Assembly: GCF_030216305.1 (NCBI RefSeq)
Contig: NZ_JASOKT010000008.1
Span: 19,229-83,228, forward strand
Origin: Actinotignum timonense
Lineage (GTDB): Bacteria; Actinomycetota; Actinomycetes; Actinomycetales; Actinomycetaceae
Direction of reading: 5' to 3'
DNA length: 64,000 bases
Position 1 is the stretch's first letter; each line of letters opens with the position of its first letter. A model generated the notes under the pieces. That model saw nothing but the letters and a program-made list of their open reading frames with translations. It did no database searches and had not been told where the DNA came from. A program made the position numbers and the translations under genes. This document shows positions 47,579 through 64,000 of this stretch, in pieces.

Positions 47579-47643
47579 GCCCGCTGCACCCGCCACCACT
47601 ACCCCGGTGATGAGATATACGCCGATTCGGAAAACGCGGCACC

Positions 47644-47708
47644 AGTTCTGAGACCGTGTCATTAGTTCTGAGACCGTGCCATCAGTTCTGAGACCATTTC
47701 CCCAGTTC
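47644..47708. repeat. Three-and-a-bit 20-bp tandem repeats
   Basis: Units beginning at 47644, 47664 and 47684 share AGTTCTGAGACC, with a trailing AGTTC at 47704. They sit between the helicase stop and the YggS-like gene, in the position expected of its promoter or operator. Confidence 0.8.
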
Positions 47709-47771: not shown

Positions 47772-48632
47772 ATGACACATACGGAGCAGGGCAGGCTTGC
47801 TCACCTCGCCGAATTGTCCAGCATAGTCCCAACCGCGGAGGAGATCCCCGACCGCATCAACCTGGTGCGTGATGCTCTGCGCGGAGCGGAAGAAGCTGCC
47901 GGCATACCGCTCGGTACCGCTCGGCTCCAAATCGTCGTGAAACACCAGTCCATCACCGCCATTCACGCTGCGCTTGCCGCCGGATCCCGCCTCATGGGCC
48001 AAAACTTCATCCAACAACTCCAAGACGTAGAAACCCAGCTCGCAACACCCAGCACGGGTGCAGGCCCATCGGCACGCCTCATCCACGACGCCAGCGCTTG
48101 GGAAGGCAGCGGCATCACCCCGGCCAGCGCCGGAAACCCACCCCACTGGACCCATGTCATCGGCCACGTGCAATCGAATAAAGCCGGGCGCGCCCTCGAA
48201 CTGGCCGATTGCATCGAAACTGTGGATAGTCTGAAACTTGCCCAGCGCCTCAACCGGCTGCAAGGCCGCTTGCGCGAAGAAGGCCACGCCCACGGCCCCT
48301 TCTCCATTTACGTCCAGGTCAACTCCTCCGGAGCAGCCAGCCAGTACGGAGTGGAACCCCACCAGGTAGAAGAACTGGTAGGGCAGATCGCCGAACTCCC
48401 CCACTTGCGGGTCGATGGCCTCATGACCATCGGAGCCAATACCACTGATGAACGGAAGATCGCCCACTCCTTCGCGCTTGTGCGTGAACTGCGGGATAAG
48501 CTCCAGCGCGAGCACCCCAGCGTACAGGAACTCTCCATGGGAATGACCCACGACATGAGCATCGCCGTGGCCGAAGGCTCCACCCAGGTACGTGTGGGCA
48601 GCGCCATCTTCGGGCCCCGGCCCGCGGCCTAA
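47772..48632 (+). CDS. YggS/PLPBP-like pyridoxal phosphate homeostasis protein
   Basis: About 286 residues from ATG 47772 (GGAG twelve bases upstream) or 292 from GTG 47754. Alanine-racemase-like barrel with the PLP-binding Lys in LQIVVKHQS, then MGQNFIQQL in place of the common GENRVQE, HVIGHVQSNKAGRAL, LMTIGANTTDE and the phosphate site LSMGMTHDMSIAVAEGSTQVRVGSAIFG. The protein binds PLP and buffers B6 and amino-acid metabolism; no enzyme activity is established for the family. Several positions deviate from the usual motif. Its stop overlaps that of the convergent ABC ATPase gene. Confidence 0.88.
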   Translation: MTHTEQGRLAHLAELSSIVPTAEEIPDRINLVRDALRGAEEAAGIPLGTARLQIVVKHQSITAIHAALAAGSRLMGQNFIQQLQDVETQLATPSTGAGPSARLIHDASAWEGSGITPASAGNPPHWTHVIGHVQSNKAGRALELADCIETVDSLKLAQRLNRLQGRLREEGHAHGPFSIYVQVNSSGAASQYGVEPHQVEELVGQIAELPHLRVDGLMTIGANTTDERKIAHSFALVRELRDKLQREHPSVQELSMGMTHDMSIAVAEGSTQVRVGSAIFGPRPAA

Positions 48633-49468
48633 ATACCTGCCGAAACCGGCACCACCATCGGGGTGCCCGTCACCGGATCCGGGATAACTACCGCAGTTAT
48701 CCCGTAGATTTCCGCAATGTTTTCCGGAGTGAAAACCTCGACAGCCGAACCCGAAAAAGCAATACGCCCATCCTTCATCGCGATGATATGAGTGGCGTAA
48801 CGCGCCGCCTGATTCAGATCGTGCAGGACCGCCACCAGAGTGCGGCCCTCTCGATTCAGTCGAGCACACAAGTCCAAGAGCTCAATCTGGTAAGCGATAT
48901 CCAGATACGTCGTCGGCTCATCCAAAAAAATAATCGGTGTGTCTTGGGCCAGAACCATCGCCACCCACACCCGCTGGCGTTCTCCACCCGAGAGCTCCCC
49001 CAGCAACGCATCAGCAAAATCCGCGGTACCCGTAGCCGCCAAAGCCCGAGCAACCGCCTCCTCATCACGTGCCGAAGGCCGCGCAAACAAACCCTGGTGC
49101 GGGTAACGCCCCCGAGCCACCAGCTCGGCAACCGTAATACCCTCCGGAACATGCGGAGACTGCGGCAACAACGCAAGTTCCCGCGCGAAATCCCGCGAGC
49201 CCATCGCCGCAATATCTCGCCCATCCAGCAGCACCCGGCCGCTCGCGGGCGAAAGTAACCGTGCCAAACCGCGTAGCAGCGTGGACTTCCCACACCCGTT
49301 CGCCCCCACGATCACCGTGAACGAGCCATCCGGGATCTCCACATTCAGATCCCGCGCCACGGCGACATCCCCATAGCCCAGGCTCAGATCAACACTGCGC
49401 AAACGCGCCGCACCGGCCGGGCCAGCCGCACCCACGTTCACGCCACCGCTGTTGCCACGCATATTCAT
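48629..49468 (-). CDS. Siderophore/haem-type ABC importer ATP-binding protein
   Basis: 279 residues. FecE/FepC-type motifs: LSLGYGDVAVARDLNVEIPDGS, Walker A GANGCGKSTLLRGLARL, LLPQSPHVPEGITVAELVARGR, signature LSGGERQRVWVAMVLAQ and Walker B IIFLDEPTTYLDIAYQ. The DEPTTYLD wording is typical of ferric-siderophore importers. The ATG at 49468 overlaps the permease stop (ATGA). Third gene of the permease-permease-ATPase operon, with the binding protein encoded divergently at 51725. Confidence 0.94.
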   Translation of the reverse strand: MNMRGNSGGVNVGAAGPAGAARLRSVDLSLGYGDVAVARDLNVEIPDGSFTVIVGANGCGKSTLLRGLARLLSPASGRVLLDGRDIAAMGSRDFARELALLPQSPHVPEGITVAELVARGRYPHQGLFARPSARDEEAVARALAATGTADFADALLGELSGGERQRVWVAMVLAQDTPIIFLDEPTTYLDIAYQIELLDLCARLNREGRTLVAVLHDLNQAARYATHIIAMKDGRIAFSGSAVEVFTPENIAEIYGITAVVIPDPVTGTPMVVPVSAGI

Positions 49469-50529
49469 CGTCCCTTCCGTTGCGACATCACCACAACCAG
49501 CACATAAAGGCCACCGACCACCGTGGTAATTGCACCCACCGGAACCGGCCGAGCCAGGGCATATTGGGCGAAAAGATCAGCCAGGAACAAAATCGAGGCA
49601 CCCGCTAGCGCGCTATGCACCAGCGAAATTCCGCGTCGCCCCGCCGCCATCCGCCCCACCTGCGGAGCAGCCAGAGCCACAAAAGCAATAGGTCCGGCCG
49701 CCGCCGTCACCACACAGGTCAAAGCGATACCAACCGCGAGGATCCCCCGGCGCGCCTTCTCGACCGACAAGCCGTGTGCAGCTGCGGCGTCGTCGCCTAA
49801 TTCCAGCTGCCGCAACGGCCGCACGCAACACGCCACAAACGGAAGCAACAACACCAAGAAAACCAGCGCGGGCCCGATCTTCGCCCACGATGCCTGCCCG
49901 AGCGTTCCGGCGCCCCACACCGCGAGGCTGAGCGCCACCTCATCCGAGGCCCGCAAGAGCAGCCAGGTATTCGCCGCGCTGAGCATCGCCGTCATACCGA
50001 TTCCCACAATAATGAGACGGAACCCGGACACGCCGTTGCGGTAGGCCAGCGCGTAAATCATTATTCCGACGACGACGCCACCTGCCAGCGCCCCCATACT
50101 CACCGCAACAGCTCCACCCACCAGGAAAGTCCGGGTGAGAATAACGCCGGTATAGGCACCGGCATTGAATCCGATAATATCCGGCGAGCCGAGCGGGTTT
50201 CGGGTGAGAATTTGGAAGAGCGCACCCGAAAGCCCGAGCGCTGCCCCGAAGGCCACCGCGGCGAGGATCCGTGGCAGGCGCCAGGTTAGAACCACGTGGG
50301 CCGCGAAGTCACCGTCACCCGCGGCAACCGCGCGTATCGAATCCGGGGCGAAGCAGGCCGCCACCTCGCCCAGGCTCAGGGGCAGATCCCCGAGGAGGAG
50401 AGCCCCCACGCACCCGAAGGCCAAAGCGAAGCTCACCGCGGCCGCAACCAGGCGGGAACGGCGGCGGCGTCGTAGTGCGACGTGGCGCAGAGGGGACTTT
50501 AAAGCGGCAGGTTGGTGCGAAAAACTCAT
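49465..50529 (-). CDS. Siderophore-type ABC importer permease (FecCD family)
   Basis: 354 residues from ATG 50529, coupled to the previous gene by ATGA. An N-terminal basic stretch LRRRRRSRLV is followed by ten hydrophobic segments. Family motifs: LTWRLPRILAAVAFGAALGLSGALFQILTRNPLGSPDIIGFNAGAY and the ATPase-contact loop AAAAHGLSVEKARRG, then GPIAFVALAAPQVGRMAAGRR. It forms the second half of a BtuC-like channel. Confidence 0.94.
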   Translation of the reverse strand: MSFSHQPAALKSPLRHVALRRRRRSRLVAAAVSFALAFGCVGALLLGDLPLSLGEVAACFAPDSIRAVAAGDGDFAAHVVLTWRLPRILAAVAFGAALGLSGALFQILTRNPLGSPDIIGFNAGAYTGVILTRTFLVGGAVAVSMGALAGGVVVGIMIYALAYRNGVSGFRLIIVGIGMTAMLSAANTWLLLRASDEVALSLAVWGAGTLGQASWAKIGPALVFLVLLLPFVACCVRPLRQLELGDDAAAAHGLSVEKARRGILAVGIALTCVVTAAAGPIAFVALAAPQVGRMAAGRRGISLVHSALAGASILFLADLFAQYALARPVPVGAITTVVGGLYVLVVVMSQRKGR

Positions 50530-51590
50530 AGCGTGAAAGCCTTTCGCCGGCGCACGAGGTAGATGAGGACCGGGGCACCCAGGAAGGCGCACATGACCGA
50601 CACGGGAAGTTCCCCGGTCGGGAGAATAATGCGGGCGAGGATGTCCGCGGCGAGGAGGAGGACCGGGGCCCAGAGCGCGGACAGTCCCACAATCCAACGT
50701 TGATCCGCCCCGGCAAAGGAGCGGATAGCGTGCGGGGCCATGAGACCTATGAAGGAAATAGGGCCGGCGATAGCAACCGCACCCCCGGTGAGGAGCGTCA
50801 TCGCCGCAATACCGGCCAGGCGGATCACCGTGACATGAGCACCGAGTGCGCGAGCGGCGTCGTCACCGAGAGCAATGATATTGAGCGCTGGGGTGAGCAC
50901 GGCAGCGGCCATGAGGCCGAAGAACAGAAGCGGAAGAACCGGCAGGATAACCTCCCAGGGGCGGTTTTCCAGCGTGCCGGCCGTCCAGACGAGGATTTCG
51001 TTGAAAGTACGCGGATCAGTCAGGCGTAGCACACCCACGATGCCGTTGAGCACGGCAGAAAGCGCCACCCCGGCCAGGATCAGGCGAACCGGATCCGCGC
51101 GACCGCTGCGGTGCGAGCCGATGAGGAGGACCGCCGCGGTGGCCAAGAGTGCACCGGCAACCGCCCACCACATGTAGATACTCGGCCGGCTAATACCCGC
51201 CACCGCGATAGCGAGAGTCACCGCGAAACCGGCACCGGCCGAAACCCCGAGGATCCCAGGTTCGGCCAGAGGATTGCGGGAAATCGCCTGGATGAGCGCG
51301 CCGGCAACCCCGAGAGCTGCACCGATGGCAAGGGCGGCGACCGTACGAGGCGGACGCAAGGTAAGCACTGCTTGCGCGTCCATGGAATCGCGTTCTGCCC
51401 CGGAGATGATAGTAAACAGTGTTCCCGGGGAGATGGGGCGGGCGCCTATGCAAATGGAGAGGAGCGCCAGCACCGCGACAGCGATGATCCCAGTGGTGAG
51501 GGCCGCGGCCCGCCGGCGCGCGGTGGTGCGGCCGGGAGCAGGGCAGGCGCGGCGTCGTGCCGAAAAACGGTGGTGGACGGTGCTGTTCAT
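50526..51590 (-). CDS. Siderophore-type ABC importer permease (FecCD family)
   Basis: 354 residues. It contains LRPPRTVAALAIGAALGVAGALIQAISRNPLAEPGILGVSAGAG, the coupling loop AARALGAHVTVIRLAG and GPISFIGLMAPHAIRSFAGAD, the hallmarks of FecC/BtuC permeases. It is first in the operon and divergent from the binding-protein gene, 134 bp away. I looked for a DtxR/IdeR iron box there and found no convincing one. Two copies of the GTAARC-type motif fall inside the gene (51361 and about 51412). Confidence 0.94.
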   Translation of the reverse strand: MNSTVHHRFSARRRACPAPGRTTARRRAAALTTGIIAVAVLALLSICIGARPISPGTLFTIISGAERDSMDAQAVLTLRPPRTVAALAIGAALGVAGALIQAISRNPLAEPGILGVSAGAGFAVTLAIAVAGISRPSIYMWWAVAGALLATAAVLLIGSHRSGRADPVRLILAGVALSAVLNGIVGVLRLTDPRTFNEILVWTAGTLENRPWEVILPVLPLLFFGLMAAAVLTPALNIIALGDDAARALGAHVTVIRLAGIAAMTLLTGGAVAIAGPISFIGLMAPHAIRSFAGADQRWIVGLSALWAPVLLLAADILARIILPTGELPVSVMCAFLGAPVLIYLVRRRKAFTL

Positions 51591-51724
51591 AACGAGAACA
51601 GGCTACCCCAATTAAACAACGCCAGCGTATCCTAATAGGGCATCTGTGGTTTCAGTGACAACCACACGACCACCGCAGCCGCAGGTGCGTCCGGCCGCGA
51701 GTGCGGCATCCACGAAAGGAAGTT

Positions 51725-52765
51725 ATGAAGAAGTCCCTGACCGCGTGGGCGGGCACCGTTCTGGTGGCTTGCCTGGCTTTTGCCGGATGCGGTTCTCAGA
51801 AGAGTAATGATTCTGCCAATTCCTCGGCGTCCCCTGCCTCCTCCTCCGCGGCGGCAAGCTCCGCTACGGACGGGAATGCCGCGACCGAGGCGTTATTCCC
51901 CGCGACAATTGACACGAAGTTCGGGCCCGTTACTGTCAAGGAAGCCCCGCAGCGCGTGGTCGCTCTGGGCTGGGGCGATGCCGAAGTGGCGCTCTCGCTG
52001 GGCGTGCAGCCGGTGGGCGCGGCTGACTGGCTGGCTTTCGGCGGCAATGGCGTGGGCCCGTGGGTGAGCGAATCGTATGAGAAGGCCCCGGAAATCCTGG
52101 GCACAATGGAGCTGTCGTACGAGAAGATCGCGGCGCTCAAGCCGGATCTTATTCTTGACGTCAAGACTTCGGGCGATAAGGAACGCCACGATAAGCTTTC
52201 CCAGATTGCGCCGACGGTCTCGCTGCCGGAGGGCGCGGATAATTGGCTGACCTCCACGAAGGACCAGGTCACCATGATTGGTGCGGCGCTGGGTAAGCCG
52301 AAGGCGGCCGCGGCGCAGCTGGATGCGGTGGAAAAGAAGTTCGCTGAGGTTACGGCCGCGCACCCCGATTGGAAGGGCAAGTCCGTGACCGTGGCGACGA
52401 AGACCTCCGAGGGCTGGGGTGCCTACCTGAAGGGCGATACGCGCCTGGAGTTCATGACGAAGCTGGGCTTCGTGCAGAACCCGAAGGTTCAGGAGCTGGC
52501 TCCGGCCGATGGCGGTTTTGCTGTGCAGCTCTCCGCCGAGCAGCTCGATGCTATCGATGCGGACCTTATTGCGGCGTTCCCAATTTTCATTGATACCGCG
52601 CAGATTACCGACGATGCCACCTGGCAGAAGGTCCCGGCAGTTGCTGCCGGCCACGCCTTCGTGGTGGACGGTGACCTCTCCAATGCGTTCTCCCTGGGCA
52701 CCCCGGCCGCGCAGCTGTGGGCTCTGGATAAGCTGACGCCGCTTATTGAGAAGGCTGTGAAGTAA
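51725..52765 (+). CDS. Siderophore/iron ABC transporter substrate-binding lipoprotein
   Basis: 346 residues from ATG 51725 (AAAGGAAG upstream). The signal peptide LTAWAGTVLVACLAFAGC ends in a lipobox, followed by a Ser/Ala/Asn linker. The mature protein has the two-lobed cluster C/FecB-like fold: APQRVVALGWGDAEVALSLGVQPVGA, YEKIAALKPDLILDVK and the C-terminal WQKVPAVAAGHAFVVDGDLS. It delivers ferric siderophore or haem to the FecCD/FecE importer encoded divergently. A 16-bp tandem duplication straddles the TAA stop (52759-52790). Confidence 0.93.
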   Translation: MKKSLTAWAGTVLVACLAFAGCGSQKSNDSANSSASPASSSAAASSATDGNAATEALFPATIDTKFGPVTVKEAPQRVVALGWGDAEVALSLGVQPVGAADWLAFGGNGVGPWVSESYEKAPEILGTMELSYEKIAALKPDLILDVKTSGDKERHDKLSQIAPTVSLPEGADNWLTSTKDQVTMIGAALGKPKAAAAQLDAVEKKFAEVTAAHPDWKGKSVTVATKTSEGWGAYLKGDTRLEFMTKLGFVQNPKVQELAPADGGFAVQLSAEQLDAIDADLIAAFPIFIDTAQITDDATWQKVPAVAAGHAFVVDGDLSNAFSLGTPAAQLWALDKLTPLIEKAVK

Positions 52766-55465: not shown

Positions 55466-57088
55466 TTATTTCTCCTCATAAGCCGTGGGAACATCAAATT
55501 GTTTTGTGACAGCCCGAATATGACGAGCAACATTCGAATAAACTGCCGCGAAGAGCGCCGGATCTTGACCCCGGTAGGGCGCAATCGCTTCTTCGAAAGC
55601 TCTGAGCGCAACCTGAGCAGCCCCGCCGCGAGCCATACGGATTTCTTCAGGACGCCGCTCAGCGGTTGTCACTTGAGAAAGAAAATCTTCATACGAGCGA
55701 GTGATCGAACGCCAGAAAATATCTGATGCCGAATCCCGATAGTTTTCGAGCGAGTCAAGAACGGTGGGCAAGCCGTTAGGTGCAACGGAGGCTGCCCCGC
55801 GTGCGCGTCGGAAAGGTCGGATCACGCAATAGTGCAGAGCCTGGATGAACTCTGCATGGCGCCGAACTTGGCCCTGTGCTCGATCAGATAGCCCGAAAGC
55901 CCATAGCTGCGGATCTGCCACATCAACCCGCGAGGAACGGATAACTGGAGAAGATGCGGTTCCTTCGATGTAATGGCGGATAAATACCAACCGACAGCCA
56001 GAGGAAGAAATAATGCGATCATGCGCTTCGGCCACTTGTGCCAGTCTGCCGCGGGCAGCCCACTCCACTGCGAGATCCGTCGCGTCCCTCCCTACGTCCA
56101 TCCGCTGAGCCTTTAACTCGCCGGACTTATTAGGCAAATACAGGTAGAAGGGATCGCTCTGATCGCGCTCAACCCAATAAGCTTTTCGGCTCTCTTTCGT
56201 TGCTCCTGCTTCTGGGGGAACCCACGCCGGTGGAACGCCACCGATGCGCACACCGGCGAGCTCGTTATCCTCCCAGTAACAGGCAGCACTATTGGATGAC
56301 CAGGTAGCCCGCCATAACGGGTGATCAGTTCCACCCCGAGATCCGGTTCGATCTGCCCATGCTGGTAAACCGTCGCCTTCTACCCATGAGCGTGGGATCA
56401 TCGCTAAAAGCGTATGAAGAAGCGACGGGCCTTCCCAAATCAGTTCGGTAGCCGTCATGCCTACGCCGACAAAATGGAAACCAGGACTTCCCATTTCAGC
56501 TTTTTGACCAGCGTAAGAGTTATTTCCAGCCGGCGAATAGCAGTGATAGGCGAGAAGGTAAAGCGCTGCATCTTCCAAGGAAAGGGTATCGCGCTGCGTT
56601 AGCAGACTCCAGAATTCTTCACCTTGATCGGAGATCATGGAAGGTAGCAGCTTCTTGAGCCGCAGCTCCCCTTTCCCGAGCTTGCGCTCATTATCTTTCG
56701 CATTGCGCATCGGCTCAGCCGGCCGTTGCATAAATGGCTGCTGGTCATCGAATAACAAGGATCCCGGTGCGAGTATTTCGATGGCTTTGTCAATCGCCTC
56801 GGGTTCAAGCCCCTCCGAGAGAATGTGTTCCCATTCGATCCGGAATGGATCCCGGTGGGTGTGATTGGACTGCCTTAAAACCACGGCAACGACCGCCGCT
56901 AATAGTCGCAACTCTGCGCCATACACATAGCCCGGGACGGTCTTATCCAGGACCACCGGTTCGCGGCCCATTTTTTTGTCGGAGGGCTCTTTTAGAATAT
57001 GAGCATCGAGAAGCGCATCACGAACTGTCAAGCGCCCGCGTGGCGTAACCAGTAACGGAATGTCCGTCAAAGCATTGATCTTTTCCAT
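55466..57088 (-). CDS. cas8e: Type I-E Cascade large subunit Cas8e (Cse1)
   Basis: 540 residues from ATG 57088, which has AAAGGAGAGG at the right distance; a TTG 18 codons upstream would lie inside the promoter -35 box and is rejected. Cse1 landmarks: the N-terminal INALTDIPLLVTPRGRLTVRDALL, QPFMQRPA, LLAYHCYSPAGNNSYAGQKAE and the Trp-rich HTLLAMIPRSWVEGDG, and a C-terminal four-helix bundle. It recognises the PAM and recruits Cas3. First gene of the operon, from the promoter at 57114-57142. Confidence 0.96.
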   Translation of the reverse strand: MEKINALTDIPLLVTPRGRLTVRDALLDAHILKEPSDKKMGREPVVLDKTVPGYVYGAELRLLAAVVAVVLRQSNHTHRDPFRIEWEHILSEGLEPEAIDKAIEILAPGSLLFDDQQPFMQRPAEPMRNAKDNERKLGKGELRLKKLLPSMISDQGEEFWSLLTQRDTLSLEDAALYLLAYHCYSPAGNNSYAGQKAEMGSPGFHFVGVGMTATELIWEGPSLLHTLLAMIPRSWVEGDGLPAWADRTGSRGGTDHPLWRATWSSNSAACYWEDNELAGVRIGGVPPAWVPPEAGATKESRKAYWVERDQSDPFYLYLPNKSGELKAQRMDVGRDATDLAVEWAARGRLAQVAEAHDRIISSSGCRLVFIRHYIEGTASSPVIRSSRVDVADPQLWAFGLSDRAQGQVRRHAEFIQALHYCVIRPFRRARGAASVAPNGLPTVLDSLENYRDSASDIFWRSITRSYEDFLSQVTTAERRPEEIRMARGGAAQVALRAFEEAIAPYRGQDPALFAAVYSNVARHIRAVTKQFDVPTAYEEK

Positions 57089-57113: not shown

Positions 57114-57142
57114 AGACTAACAAGAGTAGAAAGCTTTGTCAA
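57114..57142 (-). promoter_or_regulatory. Promoter of the Cascade operon
   Basis: On the minus strand TTGACA (57137-57142), 17-bp spacer, TAGTCT (57114-57119); transcription would begin near 57107, about 20 nt before the cas8e ATG. The -35 hexamer is perfect. It overlaps the site matched by the crRNA-like RNA (57140-57154). Confidence 0.75.
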
Positions 57143-57154
57143 TCCATTTGACCC
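57140..57154 (-). promoter_or_regulatory. Predicted Cascade target in the cas8e promoter
   Basis: The minus strand reads GGGTCAAATGGATTG. The spacer-like part of the adjacent degenerate mini-array starts GGGTCTAATGGATTG. They agree at 14 of 15 positions, and the one mismatch is base 6. The three bases 5' of the site are GAC; the last base equals the terminal C of the array repeat. Its last three bases are the first three of the -35 box TTGACA. Confidence 0.75.
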
Positions 57155-57157
57155 GTC

Positions 57158-57186
57158 TTTACAATTACGTTCCTCCCCGCTAATAT
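57158..57186 (+). promoter_or_regulatory. Promoter of the cas6e-cas3-cas1-cas2 operon
   Basis: TTTACA (57158-57163), 17-bp spacer, TAATAT (57181-57186); predicted start near 57193, giving a leader of about 147 nt that runs through the degenerate repeats in antisense. Its -35 box is four bases from the predicted Cascade target, so one bound complex could affect both promoters. Confidence 0.65.
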
Positions 57187-57223
57187 GAAACTCAAGATAA
57201 GGGAGAAACCCAGCCTCGAAAAC

Positions 57224-57308
57224 GCTGTTACCCCCGCTTACGCGGGGAAAGCGGCCTATCTAGGCAATCCATTAGACCCTGAAATACCCACGCTAGCCGT
57301 GGAAACCG
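57224..57308 (-). ncRNA. crRNA-like regulatory RNA (CreR type): two degenerate repeats around a spacer-like segment
   Basis: Read leftward: degenerate repeat A (57308-57280, 19 of 29 positions match the array repeat), 27-nt spacer-like segment (57279-57253), degenerate repeat B (57252-57224, 21 of 29). Repeat B keeps the CCCCGC/GCGGGG stem exactly and changes the loop from GCGA to GTAA, both GNRA tetraloops. Repeat A keeps a stem (CCACG/CGTGG) through paired changes. The 8-nt handle would be GTATTTCA, against GTAATTCC in the array. The first 15 nt of the segment match the cas8e promoter. Cas6e could process this RNA and Cascade could use it to repress cas transcription. No clear promoter for it was found. 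Confidence 0.75.
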
Positions 57309-57339: not shown

Positions 57340-58017
57340 ATGGCAGATCAACACACATCGGAACCCCAACCGATCTTCCTAACAAAAGTACCGGTGCACA
57401 CCCTTCTCTCCCGCGTTGCCCTGCACAAACCAGAGCGCGGATGGACACTGAAGGACCCGCAAGTACGCCACCGCGCGATCATGGCGCTCTTCCCACAGAC
57501 CAACGCGGAACACCCCCGGGCGGAGATGGGGATTCTTTTCCGCTTGGATCACGTTCCCGGAGATGCCCCATTCTTCCTTATCCAATCCCGCGAACCGGTG
57601 CCGCAACTCAACCTCCCCCACGAGGCCGCGATGAAAGAGGTTGAACTCAAGGAACTCCCAGCTGGAACTCCAGTTTCGTTCCGGATCGCTATCAATGCGA
57701 TTCAACGCATTGGCACCGGGGGAACTCGGTCAATTCCGCTCGACGGGGAGGAACCTGCCCCCGGAGTCCCAAGTCTCTCTGAATGGCTGAGCGCAAAACT
57801 ATCCCCTGCCCTCACGAATACAGAGATCATTGACGCGCGGCGAGAAGTTCTCACCACCGGTTCGGGACAAGACAAACAACGTGCTGTCCAGATTGATACG
57901 ATCAACGGAGTTGCCACCGTGGGAGATAGTGGAGCACTACTCGCAGCCCAAACCAACGGGGTTGGACGTGCAAAAAGCTACGGCTGCGGACTCCTCTCCA
58001 TCCAGGCACTATCGTGA
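57340..58017 (+). CDS. cas6e: CRISPR endoribonuclease Cas6e
   Basis: 225 residues. N-terminal strand FLTKVPVHTLLSR, then DPQVRHRAIMALFP, where His44 aligns with the catalytic His of the E. coli motif YQLHQGLWHLFP. The C-terminal Gly-rich segment GVGRAKSYGCGLLSIQ is the RNA-binding loop of the family. It cuts the repeat hairpin 3' of the stem to release crRNAs, and should also act on the degenerate repeats upstream. Here it leads the rightward operon instead of closing the Cascade operon as in E. coli. Ribosome-binding site GGAG; its stop overlaps the cas3 GTG. Confidence 0.95.
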   Translation: MADQHTSEPQPIFLTKVPVHTLLSRVALHKPERGWTLKDPQVRHRAIMALFPQTNAEHPRAEMGILFRLDHVPGDAPFFLIQSREPVPQLNLPHEAAMKEVELKELPAGTPVSFRIAINAIQRIGTGGTRSIPLDGEEPAPGVPSLSEWLSAKLSPALTNTEIIDARREVLTTGSGQDKQRAVQIDTINGVATVGDSGALLAAQTNGVGRAKSYGCGLLSIQALS

Positions 58018-62276: not shown

Positions 62277-64000
62277 CTCTTCCCCGCGCGAGCGGGGGTA
62301 ATTCCTACCGCCGAGCTTTGCATCGACTATAACCCAGCTCTTCCCCGCGCGAGCGGGGGTAATTCCTGGTATATCTTTAAGGCTCTGTGTGAGCCGACCT
62401 CTTCCCCGCGCGAGCGGGGGTAATTCCCGAATGGGCCTACGGGACCGCAGGCCGAGGCACTCTTCCCCGCGCGAGCGGGGGTAATTCCTTTTGTTATCTG
62501 GAAAGGAGGCAGAAGTGCCTCTCTTCCCCGCGCGAGCGGGGGTAATTCCAAATCGAAACCGAAAAGAAAAAAGTAGAGATCCTCTTCCCCGCGCGAGCGG
62601 GGGTAATTCCGCTTACCGCGAAGCGCATGGCCTGGATGAATCCTCTTCCCCGCGCGAGCGGGGGTAATTCCGAATACGCCAAGGAAGCTTCTAAAAAAGG
62701 TGACTCTTCCCCGCGCGAGCGGGGGTAATTCCTTGGATAAGGCAACTTCCGCGTTCCAAGCCCTCTCTTCCCCGCGCGAGCGGGGGTAATTCCTGTGTTC
62801 ACTGCGGAAACCCAGGGCGCGTTCGCTCTTCCCCGCGCGAGCGGGGGTAATTCCCACTTGCCCCACACTCAGCGGGACACCCTCCGCTCTTCCCCGCGCG
62901 AGCGGGGGTAATTCCGGAGGGCAGAGGGCCGGGGCGGGCCGGAGGTGCTCTTCCCCGCGCGAGCGGGGGTAATTCCAGCCTGAGGCGGTCCCGCTGGTAG
63001 TGGCTTTGCTCTTCCCCGCGCGAGCGGGGGTAATTCCGCCACCGGCATCTCCAAATCCCAAGTAGACCGCTCTTCCCCGCGCGAGCGGGGGTAATTCCAT
63101 TCTCTACGCGACGCCGCCGGAGTTCACGACCTCTTCCCCGCGCGAGCGGGGGTAATTCCTTCCCAGGTGGCTGTGAGCGAGCGGAAAGTCTCTCTTCCCC
63201 GCGCGAGCGGGGGTAATTCCGTCGTCTAGTTCGCCCTCATCTGGTGCGCTTGCTCTTCCCCGCGCGAGCGGGGGTAATTCCAGCGACGCGCGTAGCCCGT
63301 CGGCGGCTTCAACCTCTTCCCCGCGCGAGCGGGGGTAATTCCGGGCGCGCTCCTGTGCCTGCCCAGGTGGTCTCCTCTTCCCCGCGCGAGCGGGGGTAAT
63401 TCCGCTAGTTAGTAACTGCTAACCGTAGGCGGGCGCTCTTCCCCGCGCGAGCGGGGGTAATTCCCACGCCGGGCCGTAATGATTACGAGGTTATGCCTCT
63501 TCCCCGCGCGAGCGGGGGTAATTCCGCGGAGCGTGCTTGTGTGGCTTGCAGGAACGGCTCTTCCCCGCGCGAGCGGGGGTAATTCCTTTTTGGCTTGATA
63601 TCAAGGGAAAAAATGTGCCTCTTCCCCGCGCGAGCGGGGGTAATTCCGATGCGGCGGGTAGCATTGCTGCCCCGTGTGACTCTTCCCCGCGCGAGCGGGG
63701 GTAATTCCCTTCGCGGGCCTTGCCGGGCGTGCCCGCTATGCTCTTCCCCGCGCGAGCGGGGGTAATTCCGATATACGGGTCGATCTTGATCTGCCACGAG
63801 TCTCTTCCCCGCGCGAGCGGGGGTAATTCCGTTATCCCCCCGGACTTACAGGAAAAGCTGGACTCTTCCCCGCGCGAGCGGGGGTAATTCCTTGTGACCG
63901 CCTAGTCATGGAATCAAAGAATACTCTTCCCCGCGCGAGCGGGGGTAATTCCGAGTCCACGAAAACAGCATGGATAATTGGCATCTCTTCCCCGCGCGAG
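62277..64000 (+). CRISPR. Type I-E CRISPR array, 28 spacers, continuing past the window
   Basis: The 29-bp repeat begins CTCTTCCCCGCGCGAGCG and ends GGGGTAATTCC; it contains the CCCCGC-GCGA-GCGGGG hairpin. Repeats start every 61 bp from 62277; positions checked at 62338, 62582, 62887, 63192, 63497, 63802 and 63985 all fit, so spacers are 32 bp. There are 28 complete repeats and spacers, and a 29th repeat (63985) is cut by the window end. All repeats look identical by eye. The array is adjacent to cas2, so the newest spacers should be at the left end. No spacer matches other parts of this window by eye. Confidence 0.99.

Follow-up and report, generated by a model that had tools for sequence, protein, structure and literature searches.

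A mini-CRISPR between the divergent type I-E cas operons of Actinotignum and related genera as a probable source of a Cas-regulating RNA aimed at the cas promoter region

A mini-array of two degenerate repeats, located between the divergent cas8e and cas6e operons of the type I-E system of Actinotignum, very probably makes a Cas-regulating RNA (CreR), which is predicted to lead Cascade to a PAM-flanked site in the predicted cas8e/cas6e promoter region and would repress both operons. The mini-array, the match of its guide to the promoter region and the PAM beside that match occur in five genera and are conserved while their sequences change. That a crRNA-like guide is directed at the cas promoters had been proposed in the original prediction; nine guide/target pairs matched in spite of sequence change, the positions of their mismatches, their PAM and a control with 671 ordinary spacers support this.

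The CRISPR locus and its mini-array

The 64,000-nucleotide stretch of DNA analysed here (the window) contains a complete type I-E system of Actinotignum, consisting of eight cas genes and an array of 29-nt repeats and 32-nt spacers. On the minus strand, cas8e (cse1; 55466..57088) heads the operon cas8e-cse2-cas7e-cas5e, which extends to 52983; on the plus strand, cas6e (57340..58017) heads the operon cas6e-cas3-cas1-cas2, which extends to 62144. The Pfam matches of the genes in both operons were all above the cut-off. The canonical array (62277..64000, plus strand), with the repeat CTCTTCCCCGCGCGAGCGGGGGTAATTCC, continues beyond the end of the window. Beside cas5e, at 48629-52765, are what we take to be genes resembling an iron/siderophore ABC transporter, and three tandem 20-nt units (TTCTGAGACCGTGTCATTAG-like) were seen in an intergenic region at 47626-47705. 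The cas6e of the window is 99% identical to that of genome G006 and, among named relatives, 95 and 92% identical to those of two A. schaalii and 86% identical to that of A. timonense. For A. schaalii, cas genes and two CRISPR loci have been reported (PMC5720513), and the accessible part of that report makes no mention of a mini-array in this species.

The mini-array sits in the intergenic region between the two operons and reads leftward. Its first degenerate repeat, psiR1 (57308-57280, minus strand; CGGTTTCCACGGCTAGCGTGGGTATTTCA), is identical to the canonical repeat at 19 of 29 positions and includes an 8-nt handle, GTATTTCA (57287-57280, minus strand). It is followed by the 27-nt guide or spacer, psiS (57279-57253, minus strand; GGGTCTAATGGATTGCCTAGATAGGCC), bases 1-15 of which match the cas promoter region, and by the second degenerate repeat, psiR2 (57252-57224, minus strand; GCTTTCCCCGCGTAAGCGGGGGTAACAGC), which has 21 of 29 positions identical to the canonical repeat. 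This order of degenerate repeat, 27-nt spacer and degenerate repeat had been noted earlier and was read directly in the sequence at the same place. In 300 plain shuffles of the intergenic region of the window, the identity to the canonical repeat was at most 18/29. The predicted processed CreR (57232..57287, minus strand) consists of the handle, the guide and the psiR2 stem; for its length of 56 nt we assume the canonical I-E cleavage site, together with hairpin folding.

Both repeats of the window fold as hairpins. The GNRA tetraloop claimed for one of them was located in psiR2, where it reads GTAA in the window and GTGA in three relatives. The claim that the stems are kept by paired changes also agrees with the relatives: in the eight psiR1 rows of equal register, a count from which the window, G002 and locus L051 were left out, all 48 stem cells are standard pairs, and the two-sided changes fall at the two loop-proximal pairs with the pairing kept. 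For psiR2, 65 of the 66 stem cells across 11 loci are standard pairs, and L048 has a poorly folding psiR2.

The guide is 15 nt long in five genomes (G037, G029, G121, G243 and G098), 19 to 20 nt in G082, G116 and G094, 27 nt in Actinotignum and 31 nt in G031, these lengths resting on the placement of psiR2 by best fit; the ordinary spacers of the loci are mostly 32 nt. A plain predicted CreR promoter, TGCTATTAT, is found four bases before psiR1 in G029, G121 and G243, and the predicted CreR promoter of the window is weak (best score -1.9 with a hand-written matrix). The unpaired 3' half of the window's guide (57253-57265) is self-complementary (GCCTAGATAGGC), and A. schaalii and A. timonense do not differ in it; a related stretch, CTAGATAG, occurs within the guide of L041.

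The guide match, its PAM and the surrounding promoters

The protospacer-like target of the guide lies at 57154-57140 on the minus strand (GGGTCAAATGGATTG) and, as the original prediction had it, agrees with the guide at 14 of 15 bases with the mismatch at base 6. Beyond base 15, the guide is largely unpaired with the target. None of 2000 dinucleotide shuffles reached either ten of ten contact bases (bases 1-5 and 7-11) or 14 of 15 bases in total. The trinucleotide GAC (57155..57157, minus strand) stands directly before the target and fits the PAM derived from ordinary spacers, 5'-NAC.

For the derivation of the PAM, 671 spacers, repeats included, were collected from the arrays of 19 loci including the window, with the arrays of L046, L049 and L052 left out, and were compared with 40 prophage-neighbourhood pieces from genomes of the family, drawn from a portion of the portal-bearing regions. 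Only matches with at most 8 mismatches were kept, and a distinct spacer entered the count a single time, with the best of its matches. Twenty-eight distinct spacers matched the prophage pieces; position -2 of the protospacer is A for 27 of these 28 and position -1 is C for 24, from which the PAM follows as 5'-NAC. Two spacers of the window match prophage pieces of G001, with the PAMs CAC and AAC, and the window array gave no match in the phage collection. For 623 of the 671 spacers, the canonical repeat in front ends in C; in E. coli the last base of the repeat is derived from the PAM, which fits the C-ending repeats here. The promoter targets of all nine guide/target pairs have GAC or AAC as PAM, and AC never precedes the guide in its own mini-array. 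When the 671 ordinary spacers were compared with their own intergenic regions, none exceeded 9 of 10 contact positions and none exceeded 8 of 10 with an AC PAM.

In the original prediction, the matched site runs into the -35 box TTGACA of the cas8e promoter. A predicted cas8e promoter with TTGACA at 57143-57138, a 17-nt spacing and the -10 box TAGTCT at 57119-57114 (minus strand) does overlap the target, and it is the top minus-strand site with the hand-written matrix only, being absent from the list given by the consensus scan. On the opposite side, the -35 box (57158-57163) of the predicted cas6e promoter, TTTACA-17-TAATAT (57158..57186, plus strand), starts four bases from the target, at the distance claimed. 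The consensus scan lists this rightward promoter and a second rightward one in the window, TTGTCA/TACAAT, which also overlaps the target and, with the hand-written matrix, outscores TTTACA/TAATAT. With the hand-written matrix, the target or the PAM lies on or beside predicted -35 boxes of both sides in most loci. At five of them, namely the window, L045, L047, L075 and L044 (there the second-ranked site), the part of the guide covered by the predicted cas8e -35 box is positions 13 to 20; the predicted cas6e -35 box overlaps the PAM in L043, L044, L045 (second-ranked) and L075; and in L051 the PAM is inside the predicted cas8e -35 box.

The pattern formed by AC and the ten contact bases of the A. 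schaalii target occurs a single time each in G001, G005 and G006, at the cas promoter, and was not found in G002, G003 and G004. The reversed pattern, searched in six genomes as a control, gave one match each in G001, G003 and G005; since the control also matches once in three of the six genomes, it is the place of the match, not the number of matches, that is telling.

A transcript from the predicted cas6e promoter would carry the whole mini-array in complementary form, and the leftward RNA might pair with the cas6e leader as an antisense RNA instead of guiding Cascade. We hold this to be highly improbable; it leaves the matched promoter site unexplained, which is upstream of both predicted transcription starts. 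Antisense pairing could add to the main mechanism, the guiding of Cascade to the promoters.

The position of the target bears likewise on whether the element might be an addiction module like CreTA, in which repression by the guide would fall on a small toxin gene or toxin RNA in the intergenic region and not on the cas genes. CreA uses the same anatomy, psiR-psiS-psiR with a partial promoter match, and the accessible part of PMC12055562 describes a type I-E CreTA from Citrobacter rodentium; moreover, in the window, G001 and G006 the mini-array is crossed by a rightward frame of 43 codons. However, G005 has this frame shifted and G002 lacks it in this form, no frame of at least 15 codons is common to the genera, and the target adjoins the predicted promoters of cas8e and cas6e themselves, so that we give such a module very little credence. 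A protein toxin under the matched promoter was rejected because no frame is shared across the genera, and an RNA toxin lacking a frame would still be compatible.

Conservation of the match in changing sequence

Among 213 genomes of the family, 19 carry a cas6e of this type, distributed over 10 of 36 genera, and the upstream regions of all 19 were read. Twelve of them, from five genera (G001, G005, G006, G002, G082, G031, G037, G029, G121, G098, G243 and G116), possess a mini-array with a guide that agrees with the promoter region at every one of the ten contact positions. With the window included, nine distinct guide/target pairs were obtained, one of which is common to the window, G001, G005 and G006 and another, as far as the 15 matched bases are concerned, to G121 and G243. 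Relatives that keep the repeats thus also keep the match, in 12 of the 13 mini-array genomes; the exception is G094 (L048), whose repeats are identical to the canonical one at 18 and 17 of 29 positions and whose match score was equalled by 1314 of 2000 shuffles. No recognisable mini-array was found in the other six genomes (G060, G083, G036, G007, G026 and G032). In L038, L039, L042, L046, L049 and L050 the best identity to the locus's own canonical repeat is 12-16 of 29, none was found by eye, and these loci were counted as lacking the mini-array because the identities are not above the shuffle maxima of 16-19; since L051, with 16 and 17 of 29, and L048 have repeats that score no higher, a very degenerate mini-array could be missed in this count.

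Some further features were observed in these genomes. The cas8e-cas6e intergenic region of L046 (G007), where there is no mini-array, contains two perfect or near-perfect palindromes (GACCACTAGTGTGGTC and GCCGCACGTTGGTGTGCGGC), which resemble protein operators. In L042 (G036), a 35-nt array segment, spacer 1, matches 34 nt (L042:1523-1556) within the same 19.5-kb region and is a self-derived spacer or a duplication. At L076 (G004:C30:126-893, Actinotignum sp.), near the contig start, only cas8e residues 285-540 match, and no cas6e was found in the G004 genome; L076 is possibly a degraded locus.

Bases 1-5 and 7-11 are matched ten of ten in all nine pairs, and the mismatches within bases 1-12 are nine in total, five at base 6 and four at base 12. 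The probability that all nine fall at base 6 or 12 would be about 3e-8 if the pairs were independent, which they are not fully, because they share ancestry. As given in the accessible part of PMC5904413, every sixth guide base is flipped out of pairing in Cascade, and the assignment of base 6 of the window to a flipped position is in line with the mismatch positions of all nine pairs. The mismatch at base 6 is always guide C against T in the target strand shown in L040, L041, L043 and L051, and guide T against target A in the window.

Guide and promoter co-vary between relatives. With the AC PAM required, the fit of a guide to its own promoter is 10/10 in 10 of the 11 loci compared, while in the swap matrix a guide fits no promoter of another group better than 7/10, the values with promoters of near relatives being 7 to 10. 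Four close comparisons gave 12 two-sided changes that keep the match, some of which may be counted twice since L045 was used in two of the comparisons. One-sided changes were found once at base 6, twice at base 12 and once at base 15, and none at bases 1-5, 7-11, 13 and 14; one further two-sided change, at base 12, is not a matching one.

The degeneracy of the repeats and the 6 of 19 genomes without a recognisable mini-array are what a functionless relic array would also leave, and a match to the promoter region might arise by chance. Shuffling was carried out for nine loci, with L041, L075 and the A. schaalii relatives left out (L041 was included in the pair comparison). The contact score of 10/10 was reached by 0 to 3 of 2000 shuffles in eight loci, that is by none in the window and by 0 to 3 in the seven others; in L051 the total match of 11/15 was reached by 27 of 2000 shuffles and the contact score by 1. 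Together with the keeping of the match through sequence change and the 671-spacer control, these values make chance or a relic exceedingly improbable; a chance match was rejected on the shuffles, the ordinary spacers and the swap matrix.

The guide and the target stand in direct orientation on one strand, at a distance of about 110 bases, and the two similar stretches might be a copied site of a regulatory protein or two stretches kept alike by gene conversion. A protein site, however, would not differ wholly between genera and yet keep the self-match, would not put nine of nine mismatches at bases 6 and 12, and would not start each time beside AC and beside the repeat handle, and for gene conversion a tract of about 15 bases is short. 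We consider this alternative very unlikely and prefer the reading of the element as a guide for Cascade.

In G002 (A. timonense), cas8e is about 270 kb away from cas6e. The mini-array and the target are kept on the cas6e side though no cas8e is there, and bases 1 and 7 of the pair are changed on both sides relative to the A. schaalii pair. On the cas8e side, a second copy of the mini-array, with a spacer without its seed, is found just behind another canonical array; the cas8e half also carries a remnant of the start of cas6e (L056 and L077; G002:C1:2232857-2234512 and upstream). That the matched site stayed with the cas6e half suggests that the promoter of cas6e-cas3-cas1-cas2 is itself controlled, and that acquisition and processing, not only Cascade, may be the regulated output.

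Proposed mechanism and comparison with known systems

In the mechanism that we propose, the mini-array would be transcribed leftward, Cas6e would cut the transcript to give the 56-nt RNA (57287-57232), and this RNA would load into Cascade. The complex would bind beside GAC and pair over about 15 bases, forming an R-loop likely too short for attack by Cas3, and the bound Cascade would occlude the two facing promoters. As the level of Cascade rises, both operons would be held down, and the block would be lifted once Cascade is occupied by ordinary crRNAs or anti-CRISPR proteins, as reported for other CreRs.

According to the accessible part of a study in E. coli (PMC5904413), five seed bases and a good PAM suffice for Cascade binding, sites with a partial match bind Cascade with transcription unaltered, and six PAM-distal mismatches lower promoter repression. 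These partial-match data speak against strong repression by the 27-nt guide of the window, but they weigh less against the five genomes with 15-nt guides, because there the whole guide is matched end to end, except at base 6 (G037) or base 12 (G029).

The single Cascade site between two divergent promoters may further be viewed as an RNA-programmed two-way operator of effector and acquisition genes, the leanest form of which would be a 15-nt guide with a complete, interference-silent R-loop; guide and operator would co-evolve, the flip rhythm would set the positions of drift, and the split in G002 would suggest that acquisition and processing are regulated as well. From the comparisons made here, we judge the arguments for and against this extended reading to be evenly balanced. 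If the reading of the element as a CreR is right, natural selection has preserved the match between guide RNA and host promoter in nine versions across five genera, and has tolerated drift only at bases that Cascade leaves unread. This would be natural evolutionary evidence for the way Cascade reads DNA and for wide RNA-guided self-control of CRISPR, and the nine pairs would be ready variants with which the minimal repressing guide length and the throttling of acquisition by the same loop could be tested.

Autorepression by Cas9 belongs to type II systems and works without a mini-array or Cascade. It is relieved by anti-CRISPRs and, as far as the available part of PMC13131331 describes it, resembles the present case in that the effector represses its own genes, here by prediction. 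CreTA/CreA, described for haloarchaeal type I-B and for type I-E of Citrobacter rodentium in the accessible parts of PMC12055562 and PMC9458426, resembles it in the order psiR1-psiS-psiR2, the PAM-flanked partial match and the location between cas genes; it differs in that CreA represses a toxin, and no conserved frame was found here.

The closest known systems are the CreRs, Cas-regulating RNAs from mini-CRISPRs (Liu et al. 2023, Cell Host Microbe, doi 10.1016/j.chom.2023.08.005, as presented in reviews), of which, according to the reviews, examples autorepressing type I-B, I-E and V-A systems are in print. As in CreR, a mini-CRISPR of degenerate repeats around one spacer-like segment lies by the cas genes, the guide has limited complementarity to a cas promoter (here predicted) beside a PAM, and the effector, Cascade in the reviews, is predicted to be the same. 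Since the anatomy shows every CreR feature that sequence can test, we classed the element as a putative new CreR. No title in the literature searched reports such an element for Actinotignum or its family. Unlike CreR as the reviews describe it, the site here is between two divergent promoters, those of the effector and acquisition halves, and the guide is only 15 nt in five genomes; judged against these descriptions, the two-way operator, the 15-nt guides, the base-flip fingerprint and the split locus would be fresh to a specialist.
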